Shown piece after piece: positions 47,840-59,668 of a stretch of 64,000 bases of DNA. This stretch comes from Leifsonia poae (lineage in GTDB: Bacteria > Actinomycetota > Actinomycetes > Actinomycetales > Microbacteriaceae). The notes beneath the pieces are model-generated. The model saw only the letters and a list, made by a program, of their open reading frames with translations. It had not been told where the DNA came from and searched no databases. Where the stretch lies: contig NZ_JAIHLP010000002.1 of the NCBI RefSeq assembly GCF_020009625.1, forward strand, positions 3,100,001-3,164,000, in the 5' to 3' direction. The translations under genes were made by a program, and so were the position numbers. The stretch's first letter is position 1. Every line of letters starts with the position of its first letter.

Positions 47840-50070
47840 GTGACCGCTCCAGTTCTCGAAGAACCACCGTCCACACCGACCGGTCCGACAGACCCGGCCG
47901 CCAGCGAAGGCGCCGTCGCGCCCGGAGGCGACCCGAGCGGACGGTCGAAGCGTCGGCGCCGAGGCGGGCTGAGCATCCAGTCGAAACTGCTGATCATGCT
48001 GCTCGGTGTGAGCATCCTCTCGGCGCTCGTCACCGGCCTGATCGGTTATGTGAACGCCACGAGCTCACTCAAGCAGGCGGCGCTCAATCAGCTCACCAGC
48101 GTGCGGGAGACGCGCGCGGCCGAGATCACCCGTGTCTTCGCCAATGTGCGCTCGGCGGTCGTGCTCGGGTCGAGCAATCAGAGCGCCATCGACGCGTCCA
48201 CGACGTTCAACGCCGCCTTCGACGAGCTCGGCACGAGCACGGTGCCGGCGGATCGCGCAGCGCAGCTCGACAGCTTCTATGCGAACACGTTCGTCCCGCA
48301 GCTCGACAAGCAGAGCGGCGAGACGTACGCCGACAACGCCTTCACCCCGACGACGCCGGCCGAACAGTATCTGCAGTCGTACTACACGGCGCCGTACAAG
48401 CTCGACTACGACAAAGCGATCGAGAACCAGGATGCGGGCGACGGCAGTGCCTGGTCGGCCGCCAATGCGAAATACAACGGCTACTTCCGCGATCTGGTCG
48501 GCAACCTCAACTTCGACGACGCTCTGCTGCTCGATACCAAAGGAAACGTCGTCTACTCCGCGTATAAGGGCACGGATCTGGGCTCGAACGTGCTGACCGG
48601 TCCGTACAAGGAATCGGTGCTGAGCGGGCATACCAGTCGGTTCTCAAGACGAACACCCTGAACTCGACGGTCACCACGGACTTCGACCGGTATCTGCCGT
48701 CGCTGAACGTACCGACGATCTGGGTGGTCTCCCCGGTGGGCACGGACGGCAAACTGACCGGCGTTCTGGCGTTCCAGATCAATGTCGACACCATCAACAA
48801 CGTGATGACGGGGAACAAGGGCTGGGCCAAGCAGGGTCTCGGCCAGACCGGCGAGGTGTACTTGGCCGGGCCCGACAAGACGATGCGCTCGGTGTCGCGA
48901 ATGCTGGTGCAGCATCCCGCCCAGTATTCGGCGGACGTGATCCGCAGCGGCACCTCGCCCGAGCTGGCCGACCGCATCGTCGACGTGAAGGGGACGGTGC
49001 TGCTGCAACCGGTGAACACCCAGTCTGTGAACGCGGCGCTGCAAGGCAAGACCGGCACGGCGGAAGGGCCGAGCTACATCGGGGGTGAGAACCTCACCGC
49101 ATACGCCCCGCTGCACATCCCCGGCCTGAACTGGGTGATCGTCGCCCGGATGGACACATCGGAGGCGTACGCGCCGGTCGCCGAGTTCACCCGCAACCTC
49201 GTGCTCTCCACGGCCGCCCTCGTGCTCGTGGTCTCGCTGCTTTCGCTGCTGCTGGCCCAGGTGTTCCTGCGTCCGTTGCGGCGCCTGCTGGACGGCGTGA
49301 ACCGCGTCTCGGCGGGGGAGGTCGGTGTTCAGGTCGACACCCGCTCGCACGACGAGATCGCCGATCTCGGCGCGGCCTTCAACGATCTGTCACGCAGCCT
49401 GCAGATCAAGGCCGACCTGCTCGACGCCGAACAGGAGGAACACGAACGTCTGCTGCTGACCCTCATGCCGGAGGGTGTGGCGAAACGGTACCGGCAGGGT
49501 GATGAGACGATCGCCGAAGACCACCAGGATGTGACAGTGCTGTTCGCCGACATCGTCGGCTTCGACGACTTCAGTCGCGGTAAGGAATCCGCTGAAGGAC
49601 TGGCGCTGCTGAACAGCATCGTGCGCAGCTTCGACGAGGCGGCGGAGCGGCACGGTGTCGAGCGCGTGCGCACGACTCGGCAGGAGGGGTATCTCGCGAG
49701 CTGCGGGTTGACCGTCCCCCGGGTCGACAATGCACGGCGGATGGTCGAGTTCGCGCTGTCGATGCAGAAGATCCTCGAACGGTTCAGCGCGCAGAACGGC
49801 GCCGAGCTGAGGCTGCGGGCGGGAATCGACAGCGGAACGGTCACCAGCGGTCTGGTCGGGCGCACCAGCGTCGTCTACGACATGTGGGGCGACGCGGTGA
49901 ACCTCGCGCATCGGGTGCAGGATTCGTCGGCCACGCCGGGCGTCTACCTCACCCAGCGCGTCGTCGACGCTCTGCCTGACAGTGTGAAATACACCGATGC
50001 GGGCGAGGTCGAGACGCAGAGCGGGCAGCAGCGGGTGTGGCGGATCGACCTGGAGGCGACCCGTGTCTGA
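47840..50070 (+). pseudogene. Receptor-type class III nucleotide cyclase, interrupted by a 1-bp frameshift
   Basis: Two frames together encode one ~743-aa receptor cyclase. The first frame runs from GTG 47840 (AGGGGA upstream) to a stop at 48659-48661 and the second continues to 50070. Adding one G to GGG at 48626-48628 restores ...ESVLSG-A-YQSVLKT.... Layout: basic N-terminus, helix 1 (about 49-71), Cache-like extracellular domain, helix 2 (about 453-476), HAMP, cyclase domain (about 545-735). First metal Asp is present (FADIVGFDDF) and the transition-state Asn/Arg remain (WGDAVNLAHR). However, the adenine-Lys/second-metal motif (usually KTxGD) reads RTTRQEGYL, so activity is doubtful. Its end overlaps the CNBD-MscS channel gene by 8 bp. 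Whether the frameshift is real or a sequencing error is undecided. Confidence 0.85.
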
Positions 50071-51487
50071 CATCACGCAGCAGCCGTGGTTCTGGCCGGC
50101 GCTGATCGTGGTGATCGGACTCCCGGTGCTGCTGCTGGTGCTCACCGAGCTGAACGCGTGGCTGACGCGGCGCGGGCATCCGGCGGCCAAAGTCGTGCGG
50201 CTGGTGCGCAACTACCTGCTGCCGATGGGGGCGTTGCTGCTGTTGATCAGCCAGGTGACACTCACGAAGCAGGACTTCACCTGGACGAAGATCGCGGCGA
50301 CCGTGTTCGGATTCCTGGTCATCCTCGTGCTGCTCAACGGGCTGAACGTGGTGCTGTTCTCCACCGCCGAACGCGGCAGCTGGCGGGAGAGGATGCCCTC
50401 CATCTTCGTCGATCTGCTTCGGCTGCTGCTCATCATCGTGAGTCTGGCCGTGCTCTTCGCCTGGGTGTGGGGCGCAGATGTGGGGGGTCTGTTCACCGCG
50501 CTCGGCGTCAGCTCGATCGTGATCGGTCTCGCCCTGCAGAACGCCATCGGCCCGATCGTCTCCGGACTGTTCCTGCTGTTCGAGCAGCCGTTCCGGCTGG
50601 GCGACTGGCTCGACACGGGCAGCGTGCGGGGCCGGGTGATCGAAGTCAACTGGCGGGCTGTGCACATCGACACCGGCAACGGAATCCAGATCGTGCCGAA
50701 CGGATCGCTCGCCGACAGCTCGTTCACGAACCTCTCCAAGGCGCCGGGGCCGTACAGCGTGTCGAGCACGTTGACGTTCGCCACGGACGACGCACCACAG
50801 GATGTGATCGGTCTGCTGCGCCGGGTGGCCGGCGAGCTGCCGATGGTGGCGCGCGGAGAGGCGCCGTCGGCGTATCCGATCGGCGGAGCGAAGTACGAGG
50901 TCAACATCCCGGTGAGCGGACCGGCGCTGGAAGGGCAGACGCTCGCGCTCTTCCTGACCTGGCTCTGGTATGCCGCCCGTCGCGCCGGCCTCCATCTCGA
51001 CGGCGACCTCACGGACGACTACAACACGCCGGAGCGCCTTCTCGCCTGCCTGCGCCTCGTGGCCCCGACGCTGCATCTGGCTTCGGACGAGCTCGAGGAT
51101 TTCCTGGCCTCCGCGCGTCTCGAACGGTTCGGAGCGGGGGAGGTGATCCAGCGAACCGGGACCATCCCGGAGACGACGGGCGTCATCGCCCTCGGGACGG
51201 CACGGCTCGGCGCGCCGGTGGAGGGCGGCGGCGAGATCCCCCTCGGCCTGCTCGGTGAGAATGAGTTCGTCGGGCTCACCGCGCTCACCCGCGAGAAGCT
51301 GTTCACCACGATCGTCGCCTCCACTGATGTGACGCTGGTGACGGTCTCTGTGCCGGTGCTCGAGGAGCTGGTGCGCAAACGCCCTGCGCTGGCCCGCGAG
51401 ATCGGTCAGACGATCGACAATCGCCGCAGCATGACCGAGGAGGCGGGCGGCGACGTGAGCGAGACGCGAGGGCTCGGCCAGCGGTGA
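50063..51487 (+). CDS. MscS-type channel with C-terminal cyclic-nucleotide-binding domain
   Basis: A 474-aa channel. About four N-terminal helices precede the pore helix (TALGVSSIVIGLALQNAIGPIVSG), then the MscS beta domain (FEQPFRLGDWLDTG, NWRAVHIDTGNGIQIVPNG) and a C-terminal CNBD (about 350-455). The CNBD phosphate-binding cassette, canonically GE-x-ALL...PRxAT, is altered: the aligned segment reads FVGLTALTREKLFTTIVA, without the usual Glu/Arg pair in place. GTG 50063 has GGAGG about 6 bp upstream and lies inside the cyclase gene end, implying translational coupling. Resembles mycobacterial Rv2434c, also next to a cyclase gene. Confidence 0.88.
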   Translation: MSDITQQPWFWPALIVVIGLPVLLLVLTELNAWLTRRGHPAAKVVRLVRNYLLPMGALLLLISQVTLTKQDFTWTKIAATVFGFLVILVLLNGLNVVLFSTAERGSWRERMPSIFVDLLRLLLIIVSLAVLFAWVWGADVGGLFTALGVSSIVIGLALQNAIGPIVSGLFLLFEQPFRLGDWLDTGSVRGRVIEVNWRAVHIDTGNGIQIVPNGSLADSSFTNLSKAPGPYSVSSTLTFATDDAPQDVIGLLRRVAGELPMVARGEAPSAYPIGGAKYEVNIPVSGPALEGQTLALFLTWLWYAARRAGLHLDGDLTDDYNTPERLLACLRLVAPTLHLASDELEDFLASARLERFGAGEVIQRTGTIPETTGVIALGTARLGAPVEGGGEIPLGLLGENEFVGLTALTREKLFTTIVASTDVTLVTVSVPVLEELVRKRPALAREIGQTIDNRRSMTEEAGGDVSETRGLGQR

Positions 51488-51519: not shown

Positions 51520-51534
51520 GAGTTAGGGGATTTG

Positions 51535-52779
51535 ATGGCGGTCGAGGTCGACGAACGAAAGACGGCGGCGCCCGCGCGGCTGCTCTTCCTGCTCGGTCCG
51601 GCATTCGTCGCGGCGATCGCCTACGTCGACCCCGGCAATGTTGCCGCGAACCTCACGGCCGGCGCACAATACGGCTACCTTCTCGTCTGGGTGCTCGTCG
51701 CAGCGAACGCCATCGCCGTCTTCGTTCAATACCAATCCGCGAAACTCGGCATCGTCACCGGTTCCAGCCTCCCGGAGCTGCTCGGCTCGCGACTCGGCAC
51801 CGGCCCCAGACGCGCCTTCTGGGCGCAGGCCGAACTCGTGGCGGCGGCGACCGACCTGGCGGAGGTCATCGGCGGGGCCATCGCGCTCAACCTGCTGTTC
51901 GGGCTGCCGCTCCCGCTGGGCGGACTCATCGTCGGAGTGGTATCGATCGGCATCCTGGCGATACAGTCCCGCCGCGGTCAGCGCCCGTTCGAGATGGTCA
52001 TCGTGGGGCTCCTCGGCGTCATCGCGGTCGGCTTCTTGGCCGGGCTGTTCGTGAGCCCCGTCGACTGGGGCGCGGCGGCCGACGGCCTCGTTCCCCGCTT
52101 CGACGGGGCGCCGACCGTTCTGCTGGCGGCCAGCATGCTCGGCGCGACCGTGATGCCGCACGCCATCTACCTGCATTCCGCCCTCGCCCGCGACCGGCAC
52201 GGACGAGCCGCGACCCCTGGCGCCGTGCGCCGGCTGCTGAAGGCGACGAAGATCGATGTGGTCGCCGCCCTCGTCCTCGCCGGCGCCGTGAACATCGCGA
52301 TGCTCCTGCTCGCCGCAGCCGCGCTCGGCGGGGTCGGCGGCACCGACACCATCGAGGGCGCTCACGCCGCGATCACCACCGCGCTCGGCCCCGCGATCGG
52401 CGTCATCTTCGCGGTCGGGCTGCTCGCCTCGGGGCTCGCCTCCACATCGGTGGGCAGCTACGCCGGCGCCACCATCATGTCGGGGCTGCTCAAAGTGCGC
52501 GTGCCGCTGCTCACCCGACGGGTCGTCACCCTCATCCCGGCCATCGTGATCCTGTCGATCGGAGTCGACCCGACCTGGGCGCTCGTGATCAGCCAGGTCT
52601 TCCTCAGCCTGGGCATTCCGTTCGCGATGATCCCGCTGCTGCGGCTCACCGGCTCGCGCGCGGTGATGGGCGATCGCGTCGACGGATGGGGCACGCGCCT
52701 CCTCGGCGTCGGGGTCGCCGCCCTCGTCGTCGCCCTGAACATCGCCCTCGTCGTCCTCACCGTCGCCGACTGGGTCTGA
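51535..52779 (+). CDS. mntH: Nramp-family divalent metal transporter (MntH-like)
   Basis: A 414-aa proton-coupled Mn2+/Fe2+ importer with about eleven helices. The metal site is intact: helix 1 DPGNVAAN (Asp, Asn) and helix 6 GATVMPHAIYLHSA (Met; His). Compared with the common MPHNxxLHS the Asn is Ala here. ATG 51535 has AGGGGA 4 bp upstream; a TTG one codon earlier is possible. Preceded by a MntR-type palindrome and followed by the convergent MntR gene, so it is probably manganese-repressed. Confidence 0.93.
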   Translation: MAVEVDERKTAAPARLLFLLGPAFVAAIAYVDPGNVAANLTAGAQYGYLLVWVLVAANAIAVFVQYQSAKLGIVTGSSLPELLGSRLGTGPRRAFWAQAELVAAATDLAEVIGGAIALNLLFGLPLPLGGLIVGVVSIGILAIQSRRGQRPFEMVIVGLLGVIAVGFLAGLFVSPVDWGAAADGLVPRFDGAPTVLLAASMLGATVMPHAIYLHSALARDRHGRAATPGAVRRLLKATKIDVVAALVLAGAVNIAMLLLAAAALGGVGGTDTIEGAHAAITTALGPAIGVIFAVGLLASGLASTSVGSYAGATIMSGLLKVRVPLLTRRVVTLIPAIVILSIGVDPTWALVISQVFLSLGIPFAMIPLLRLTGSRAVMGDRVDGWGTRLLGVGVAALVVALNIALVVLTVADWV

Positions 52780-52824: not shown

Positions 52825-53493
52825 TCAGGCGGGGGTGAGCCAGACGGCGGCGGCGGCCGTCGCGCCGAGCACGACGTCGGCGTCGCCGAGGCGCACCGTC
52901 ACGTCGCCGGCGAACTCGCGGTGCTCATCCACGGTGAGCGCGGTGTCGACCAGGATGCCGCGGTCGGCGAGGTAGCGCAGCACAGCCGGGTCGGCGTCCG
53001 AGATGCGGGTGACCCGCAGAGGGACGTTCGGCTCGGCAGACATGAGCGGCGTCGCATCCGGCAGGTGCGGGGTGCCATCGGCGCTCGGGATGGGGTCGCC
53101 GTGCGGGTCGCGGGAAGGGAAGCCGAGCCGGCGGTCGATGCGTTCGATGAGCGTGTCGGAGACCGCATGCTCGAGCACCTCGGCCTCGTCGTGCACCTCG
53201 TCCCAGCCGTATCCGAGCTCCTCCACGAGGAACGTCTCCAGCAGACGGTGACGGCGCACCATGGCGACGGCGTTGCGGCGGCCCGTCTCAGTGAGTTCGA
53301 TGCCGCCGTAGGGCTCGTGCACGAGCATCCCCTGATCGGCGAGGCGGCGGATGCCGTCGGAGATCGTCGCAGCCCGGACGCCGAGCCGTTCGGCCAGCTG
53401 CTTCACGGTGATCGGGTCGTGGGACCATTCGGTGGCCGACCAGATGACCTTCAGATAGTCCTGTGCGACGGTCGACAGTTCAGACACGGGCAT
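52825..53493 (-). CDS. mntR: DtxR/MntR-family metal-dependent repressor
   Basis: A 222-aa regulator. The N-terminal winged helix (DYLKVIWSATEW, VKQLAERLGVRAATISDGIRRLADQGML) is followed by the metal-binding/dimerisation domain with RRHRLLETFLVEELGYGWDEVHDEAEVLEHAVS and the RRLGFPSRDPHGDPIP segment, then a C-terminal FeoA/SH3-like domain. The metal-binding helix has Glu and His at the usual positions; preference for Mn over Fe is suggested by the Nramp neighbour. TACAAT ends 6 bp before its ATG, so its mRNA is probably leaderless. Confidence 0.92.
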   Translation of the reverse strand: MPVSELSTVAQDYLKVIWSATEWSHDPITVKQLAERLGVRAATISDGIRRLADQGMLVHEPYGGIELTETGRRNAVAMVRRHRLLETFLVEELGYGWDEVHDEAEVLEHAVSDTLIERIDRRLGFPSRDPHGDPIPSADGTPHLPDATPLMSAEPNVPLRVTRISDADPAVLRYLADRGILVDTALTVDEHREFAGDVTVRLGDADVVLGATAAAAVWLTPA

Positions 53494-58832: not shown

Positions 58833-59668
58833 TCACACTGCCGGGGGCGGGGTCAGCGGTGCAGCTGAGGTGCCGGCCCCGGCTGTCCCTGTGAGGGAGC
58901 GCTCGCGCATCAGCTCACCGACGGCGCGCACGACGCGTGAACCCACGACCGTTCCGGCGGTCGGATGGTGCCAGAACTGCAGGGTGAGGGTGGTGCGGTC
59001 CTCGCTGATTCGGGTGAACAGGATGCGGGCGTGCTCGCGACTGTGCACTCCGTCGACCGTTTGCAGGGTGGTGGTGAGGGCATCCGTGAAGTCGTCGAGC
59101 CCATCCGGGGCCAGCATCACCCGCACCTCGACCTCCGAGCGCCGGGCGCCCGCCTCGGAGTGGTTGATGAGCGGCTGTTGCAGCAGCAGCGAGTTGGGGA
59201 TGTGGATGGTGCGGCCGTCGAGGGTCCTGATCACCACCGATCGGCCGTTCAGCTCTTTGACGCTTCCGGCGATGCCGTTGCACTCGATCTCGTCGCCGAT
59301 TTTTATCGGTCTCCGCGTCTGCAGCACCACGCCCGAGGCGAAGTTCTCTGAGATTCCGCGCAGAGCCAGGGCGAGGATGACGCCGACGATGATCGCCGCC
59401 GCCAGCAGCGGCTGGATCGGTGCCCCCAGGAAGCTGAAGGCGACGCCGACGGCGAGTAGCACGACGAAGTACTTCACCAGTCGGGGTGCAAGCGCCGCGA
59501 ACTCGGGGAGATGCCGCGCACCCGGCTCAGCAGGGCGGTCATTCCCTTCTTGGCGAAGATGCTGGCGATCCAGCCGACGACCACCACGGCGACCGCGATG
59601 GCAACGCTCCACCCGCTCAGATTCGTGAAATTCAAGAACCCGGTGCTGCTTCCATCCGCTCGGAGCAT
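58833..59668 (-). pseudogene. MscS-family mechanosensitive channel, interrupted by a 1-bp frameshift
   Basis: An N-terminal frame from ATG 59668 encodes a first helix (WSVAIAVAVVVVGWIASIF) and LLSRVRGISP. The continuation EFAALAPRLVKYFVVLL is in another frame that carries on through the pore helix region (LAAAIIVGVILALALRGISENFASGV) and the MscS beta domain (RRPIKIGDEIECNG, NGRSVVIRTLDGRTIHIPN) to 58833. Adding one base to the GGGG at 59505-59508 (CCCC on the coding strand) joins them into a normal ~278-aa small MscS. It would open under hypo-osmotic shock. Real mutation or sequencing error cannot be told here. Confidence 0.85.

Follow-up and report, generated by a model that had tools for sequence, protein, structure and literature searches.

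An altered receptor-channel gene pair in Leifsonia poae and other actinobacteria: a cyclase-like sensor that may control an MscS channel without cyclic AMP

The bCNG channels (Caldwell et al. 2010, cited in PMC4560390) are members of the MscS superfamily with a C-terminal cyclic-nucleotide-binding domain (CNBD). On the enzyme side, the closest described systems are the class III cyclases with Cache and HAMP domains. Cyclases that have lost residues are known, and so, separately, are MscS channels that carry a CNBD. Here, a gene pair that joins the two was analysed in a stretch of 64 000 nucleotides from Leifsonia poae (the window; contig NZ_JAIHLP010000002.1, positions 3 100 001 to 3 164 000 of the forward strand). 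In this pair, a gene for a Cache-HAMP-cyclase-like receptor lies 5′ of a gene for an MscS channel with a CNBD-like domain, and canonical residues are replaced in both. The altered pair may represent a receptor that controls a channel without the usual messenger, cyclic AMP (cAMP). The same pairing is presumably found in Mycobacterium tuberculosis as Rv2435c/Rv2434c, which an earlier note on the window, made by a model from the sequence, had named. Both are named in PMC2447327 (10 mentions of Rv2435c and 3 of Rv2434c), which may therefore describe the pair, and Rv2435c is listed with the mammalian-type cyclases in PMC3961136. PMC4886424 concerns other cyclase-like proteins and contains none of the words mechanosensitive, channel and Rv2435c. 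For a link to M. smegmatis MSMEG_4477 via published primers, no close match was found in the loci collected. No paper on a joint degeneration of both partners was found by title or abstract, in a search that left subscription papers largely aside.

The host genome (4.14 Mb, 99.96% complete) carries a real gene pair with an overlap of 8 bp (50063..50070, +) between the receptor stop codon (TGA 50068-50070) and the channel start codon (GTG 50063), as the earlier note had stated. That note had also described a single Cache-HAMP-class III cyclase gene. The domains were recovered with Pfam, dCache_1 below its cut-off; the receptor gene is not a single frame, a break that the note had missed. The N-terminal part (47840..48661, +), which contains TM1 (the first transmembrane segment) and the first sensor half, runs from GTG 47840 to TGA 48659-48661; its 273 amino acids (47840-48658) align with intact relatives. 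The remainder is in another frame: the C-terminal part (48604..50070, +), an open frame of 488 amino acids, contains the second sensor half, TM2, the HAMP domain and the cyclase homology domain. HAMP (PF00672; 49249..49404, +; residues 216-267 of the C-terminal part; E 5.4e-11) and Guanylate_cyc (PF00211; 49513..50028, +; residues 304-475; E 2.6e-35) were over the Pfam cut-off in this part, and dCache_1 was over it in the intact relative P0121. Matches to solved cyclases (E down to 7.3e-39) likewise point to a class III catalytic fold. The channel gene (50063..51487, +) is intact and encodes 474 amino acids, with an MscS beta-domain (PF00924, MS_channel_2nd; 50549..50740, +; residues 163-226; E 9.7e-19) followed by the CNBD-like domain (PF00027, cNMP_binding; 51122..51379, +; residues 354-439; E 1.5e-8, over cut-off). 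Among the best 120 of 2431 matches, Leifsonia supplies the closest protein relatives that carry a name.

Catalytic places were assigned by sequence alignment. In the C-terminal part of the receptor, FADIVGF carries the first metal Asp (Asp316) and YDMWGDAVNLAHR carries the base Asp, the Asn and the Arg, in agreement with the earlier reading that the first metal Asp and the Asn/Arg pair are kept; these last three are Asp426, Asn433 and Arg437 in DMWGDAVNLAHR (49879..49914, +). Where KTxGD is expected, the protein has ERVRTTRQEGYLASCG. This replacement by RTTRQEGYL (49669..49695, +) had been noticed before and stands. Its second metal place is nevertheless still acidic: in the alignment to solved cyclases, the Lys position is Arg356 and, after a one-residue insertion, Glu361 falls at the second metal place and may still bind metal. 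Two changes of the window protein are clear, Arg for Lys and Glu for Asp. The Lys is the residue that contacts adenine, and the role of the Lys/Asp pair is stated in PMC4886424.

The family was then described with a main set of 244 cyclase domains, the window's included and four domains from triads (see below) left out. The Lys position is Arg in 241/244 and His in 3/244, and Lys is found in none (0/244). The second metal place is Asp in 12/244 and Glu in 32/244, the rest being Asn, Gly, Ser, Arg, Gln, Thr or Ala, and both metal places are acidic in 44/244. The base-contacting Asp is Asp in 244/244. The transition-state Asn is kept in 87/244 and the transition-state Arg in 156/244, with Gln in 67 others. 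Both metal acids, the Asn and the Arg occur together in 15/244, the window protein among them. A second set consisted of 120 mycobacterial proteins, of which six did not match the motif expression. In the 114 readable ones, the Lys place is Arg in 112 and Gln in 2, and the second metal place is Asn in all 114.

Changes were counted by parsimony on 121 domains, non-redundant at 85%. The second metal place required 28 steps, the Asn 32 and the Arg 20, against a median of 20 for all positions, 7 for the first metal place, 1 for the Lys/Arg place and 0 for the base Asp. Several catalytic places therefore drift like an average position, in contrast to the Arg/Asp pair and the fold, which are retained. 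Places before the cyclase domain were invariant in 57 aligned receptors. The family shares with class III Cache-HAMP cyclases the fold, the HAMP coupling, the linker, the first metal acid and the base Asp, and differs from them by the Lys to Arg change, by a second metal Asp that is not conserved and by the drift of Asn and Arg.

The channel shows a comparable departure. The segment in its CNBD is FVGLTALTREKLFTT, and the canonical positions hold neither Glu nor Arg. The absence of the canonical Glu...Arg pair reported by the earlier note was borne out, and neither residue of the bCNG cassette (Glu + Arg) is present. The non-canonical phosphate cassette GLTALTREKLFTTIVA (51272..51319, +) contains Thr409-Arg410, a pair that is conserved instead (Thr409 in 239/247 channels, Arg410 in 235/247). 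The cassette Glu is kept in 1/247 channels, that of locus L044, and an Arg lies within the cassette stretch in 11 of the 125 paired channels tabulated. The nearest solved CNBD sequence is that of NtcA (E 7.8e-6). For comparison, eight plasmid-borne proteobacterial channels of the same architecture, with an MscS beta-domain and then a C-terminal CNBD as in the bCNG channels, were picked by hand from 267 plasmid records with a channel match. Seven of these eight keep the Glu, and none has a cyclase-like open reading frame (ORF) within 4 kb, whereas the channel of the present family always lies beside a receptor in the loci examined.

The idea that loss of KTxGD accompanies loss of the CNBD Arg was examined in 125 pairs and met with almost no variance. 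The second metal Asp is present in 5 pairs, the CNBD Glu in 1 and the cassette Arg in 11. All three occur together only in L044; the other four pairs with the Asp are without the CNBD Glu. L044 alone fits a linked change of both partners, which is suggestive and, as a single case, no test.

A cyclase-like gene directly adjoins the channel gene on the same strand in 126/126 channel-bearing loci (125 by rule, plus L043, in which both genes are in one open frame). The same was found in 20/20 further loci, with which all 33 places of the class-wide search had been looked at, giving a total of 146/146. Because 106 of these 146 loci were found via the channel and 40 via the cyclase, it can be said that neither gene was seen alone. 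The locus counts include related and partly repeated genomes, some loci being one genome under two names; the P-numbered proteins and the loci are partly the same genes, and the named loci repeat some genomes. In 30/36 relatives read, a candidate channel start lies at -8, -4 or -1 relative to the receptor stop. The named loci were the best 80 of 442 relatives and come mostly from Mycobacterium and Mycolicibacterium because the query began with a mycobacterial sequence. They have the same adjacent pair, with the Lys and second metal changes, and the order cyclase then channel was seen in all Mycobacterium loci examined. Rv2435c/Rv2434c were not among these, nor among the best 120 of 2083 matches of the last protein search, all of which are closer relatives. 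In other actinobacterial lineages, three triads (L012, L013 and L170) have the order cyclase-like, channel, cyclase-like, and the two cyclase-like genes of a triad differ. The upstream cyclase-like gene keeps the Lys in L012 and L013, and the first metal place is without an acid in all four triad domains read from these two loci.

Presence of the pair is patchy. It was found in 4/60 relatives searched, the host genome included and all four within the genus, in 29/199 genomes of the host's bacterial family and in 12/151 genomes of a mycobacterial family. The counts for the class (at least 30/394 genomes, all in those two families) and for the phylum (at least 9/296) are lower bounds, because only four and five candidates per genome, respectively, were scored. 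Single homologues from Microlunatus and Specibacter were among the best 120 of 3373 matches. Two channel copies each were seen in genomes G651, G956 and G1057, and in G1051 (L173) one TGA lies within the channel match of the class search.

Class III (PF00211) domains other than the paired one are scarce in these genomes. The paired domain is the sole PF00211 domain in 30/32 carrier genomes of the host's bacterial family (its own and 31 others), and the two exceptions belong to one genus. Of the 36 class III domains in 198 genomes of that bacterial family, 29 belong to the pair. Six of the seven unpaired cyclases were readable, and 6/6 keep the second metal Asp (EKFIGD three times, ERFTGD, TAGD and TSGD); the seventh, L160, was not read. 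According to PMC2447327, class III is the only class of cyclases found in actinobacteria. The present census covers class III in the host's bacterial family. The channel carries the only cNMP_binding domain over cut-off in 22/32 carriers, others being present in 10.

The explanation preferred here, tentatively and with slightly less than even confidence, is that a receptor whose cyclase domain is degenerating has a private channel and passes its state to the CNBD-like domain of that channel. An extracellular Cache sensor would drive the HAMP-coupled class III cyclase homology domain, and transmission through HAMP and linker would change the state of the cyclase dimer. The CNBD-like domain of the co-translated partner would receive this state, and the MscS channel would open or close in response. 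Across the family, the cyclase domain would have lost residues for nucleotide cyclisation and kept the fold, the base-side Asp and an Arg for the Lys. The pairing, the architecture, the residue changes, the pattern of constraint and the few other class III cyclases in carriers are read directly from the sequences. They suggest that ordinary cyclase activity is lacking in most members, and the family probably signals without cAMP, via a relay or another ligand. The least certain step, which we infer, is the mode of transmission: receptor and channel would touch, whether a nucleotide is bound or not, and no new small molecule would carry the signal. Because the receptor is frame-broken in the genome of the window, the working system has to be inferred from relatives.

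Several points weigh against this explanation. The first metal place is acidic (Asp or Glu) in 243/244 domains. The window protein and its nearest relatives, L042 and L043, keep the Asp, the Glu, the base Asp, the Asn and the Arg, so that their only distinguishing changes are Arg for Lys and Glu for Asp. In the congener L044 (genome G010), both metal Asps, the base Asp, the Asn and the Arg are kept and only the Lys is replaced; its CNBD has a Gly-Glu and a cassette Arg (GESALTGQPSRAA). Replacements of the Lys are tolerated in some active cyclases. The upstream gene of triad L013 has an intact KILGD, with Thr at the first metal place. The Leifsonia branch has the least degraded domain and may therefore retain some cyclase activity, and L044, with both metal Asps, base Asp, Asn, Arg and the CNBD Glu and Arg, may be a working cyclase-channel pair. 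Finally, class III dimers are two-fold and MscS channels seven-fold, a symmetry mismatch that a diffusible ligand fits better. The drift of catalytic places favours contact and the mismatch favours a ligand. The earlier note had likewise proposed a move away from cAMP, to another ligand or to a protein-protein relay. This was upheld at the family level (Lys 0/244, both metal acids 44/244, CNBD Glu 1/247, 30/32 carriers without another class III cyclase) and is weaker for the window protein, because it has acids at both metal places and keeps Asn and Arg; either outcome named by the note would agree with the sequence data.

In the strictest form of the contact explanation, a messenger-free relay, a pseudoenzyme cyclase would touch the channel CNBD, whose cyclic-nucleotide pocket would now be a docking surface. 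An old cAMP circuit would in this way have become a protein-protein relay in both of its halves. This form is possible and on the whole doubtful. Under such a relay, the triads of other actinobacterial lineages would be two pseudo-cyclases flanking one channel, and an older, cyclase-like state may survive in a few members, for example L044. If instead the cyclase domain makes an unusual small molecule, cyclic or non-cyclic, that the altered CNBD reads, the pair would be a private messenger circuit. The private pairing in 146/146 loci, the nearly invariant base Asp and Arg, the first metal acid in 243/244, the 15/244 domains with both metal acids, Asn and Arg (the window protein included) and the suitability of a diffusible ligand for a two-fold enzyme and a seven-fold channel all speak for this circuit, and the conserved Thr-Arg of the CNBD could bind the new ligand. 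A single conserved two-metal reaction across the family is, however, hard to square with a second metal place that is free to change (28 steps) and with the repeated losses of Asn and Arg, and we regard this explanation as unlikely.

That the pair is, at least in the Leifsonia branch, an ordinary adenylate cyclase with an ordinary cAMP-gated MscS channel, both modestly changed, is improbable. PF00211 and PF00027 are both over cut-off, the window protein keeps the Asp, Glu, base Asp, Asn and Arg, and L044 is near-canonical in both partners. These observations have to be set against the absence of the Lys from all 244 domains, the near absence of the CNBD Glu (1/247), a window channel without the cassette Arg and the GD motif kept by 6/6 readable unpaired cyclases of the same bacterial family. 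Mammalian cyclases split their catalytic residues across two domains, and the degenerate domain could likewise form a heterodimer with a complete cyclase encoded at another place in the genome. The triads L012, L013 and L170, with two different cyclase-like genes around a channel, would suit such an arrangement. It is very improbable all the same, as 30/32 carrier genomes of the host's bacterial family have no other PF00211 domain and none of the four triad domains read (L012 and L013) is acidic at the first metal place. The genome counts oppose the heterodimer for most carriers of this family; it could still apply to the mycobacteria and to the two genomes that have a second cyclase.

The interruption of the receptor gene bears on the window only. 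In the stretch 48604..48661 (+), the N-terminal frame closes at 48661 and the C-terminal frame is open from 48604; the corresponding stretch is open in three congeners. In one of these (G021, L006/L043), the receptor end and the channel share one open frame: at 4155-7856 of L043, receptor and channel form one frame of 1234 amino acids, with the last part of the receptor out of frame, which may reflect an assembly error or a fusion that occurs in nature. Programmed frameshifting at the break was rejected because the three congeners have open frames there; a shift site was not searched for. The ratios of nonsynonymous to synonymous substitution rates (dN/dS) against two congeners were 0.28-0.29 for the N-terminal part, 0.18-0.20 for the C-terminal part and 0.26-0.30 for the channel, synonymous distances to L044 being near saturation. 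By these ratios, both receptor parts and the channel are under purifying selection. A second interrupted receptor was seen in L171 (G964, minus strand), where one stop lies between ORFs of 287 and 449 amino acids in the same frame and an intact channel follows. The chances are evenly balanced that the module of the window is a decaying remnant, the break being a true mutation and the receptor nonfunctional, which would be compatible with any of the other explanations. The break at 48604-48661, the patchy presence (4/60 relatives searched, 29/199 genomes of the bacterial family) and the interrupted receptor of L171 agree with a remnant. Purifying selection on both parts and the channel goes the other way, because it makes the break either recent or an assembly error.

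Membership of Pycsar was considered and rejected. The cyclase domain gave weak matches to PADLOC profiles of PycC (best E 8.6e-7), a likeness that is outweighed by two differences: here the cyclase-like protein is a membrane receptor with a sensor, and the channel matches no PADLOC family and so has no effector match. A wider conserved operon was also rejected, weakly, as no third gene recurs in both groups among 82 non-redundant loci. This screen used the longest ORFs, by which even the pair was found in only 67 and 60 of the 82 loci, and recurring antisense ORFs and mycobacterial synteny were set aside by eye. Downstream of the channel in the window lies an ORF of 415 amino acids (51532-52779, +) that resembles an Nramp/MntH metal transporter by eye, with a palindrome-like stretch 5′ of it and, opposite to it, an ORF that resembles a DtxR-type regulator by eye (52825-53493, -). 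A second, plain MscS-type match is present at 59136-59483 (-), about 8 kb 3′ of the receptor-channel pair.

In this closely paired family, residues for producing cAMP and residues for sensing it are altered together, and most carrier genomes examined lack a further class III cyclase. The near-canonical L044 and the strongly degraded members together form a graded natural series. The finding also concerns the related mycobacterial pairs, in which the first gene commonly goes under the name of adenylate cyclase. If the explanation is true, the pair would be a natural case of a second-messenger circuit that has become a private relay or has been adapted to another ligand.

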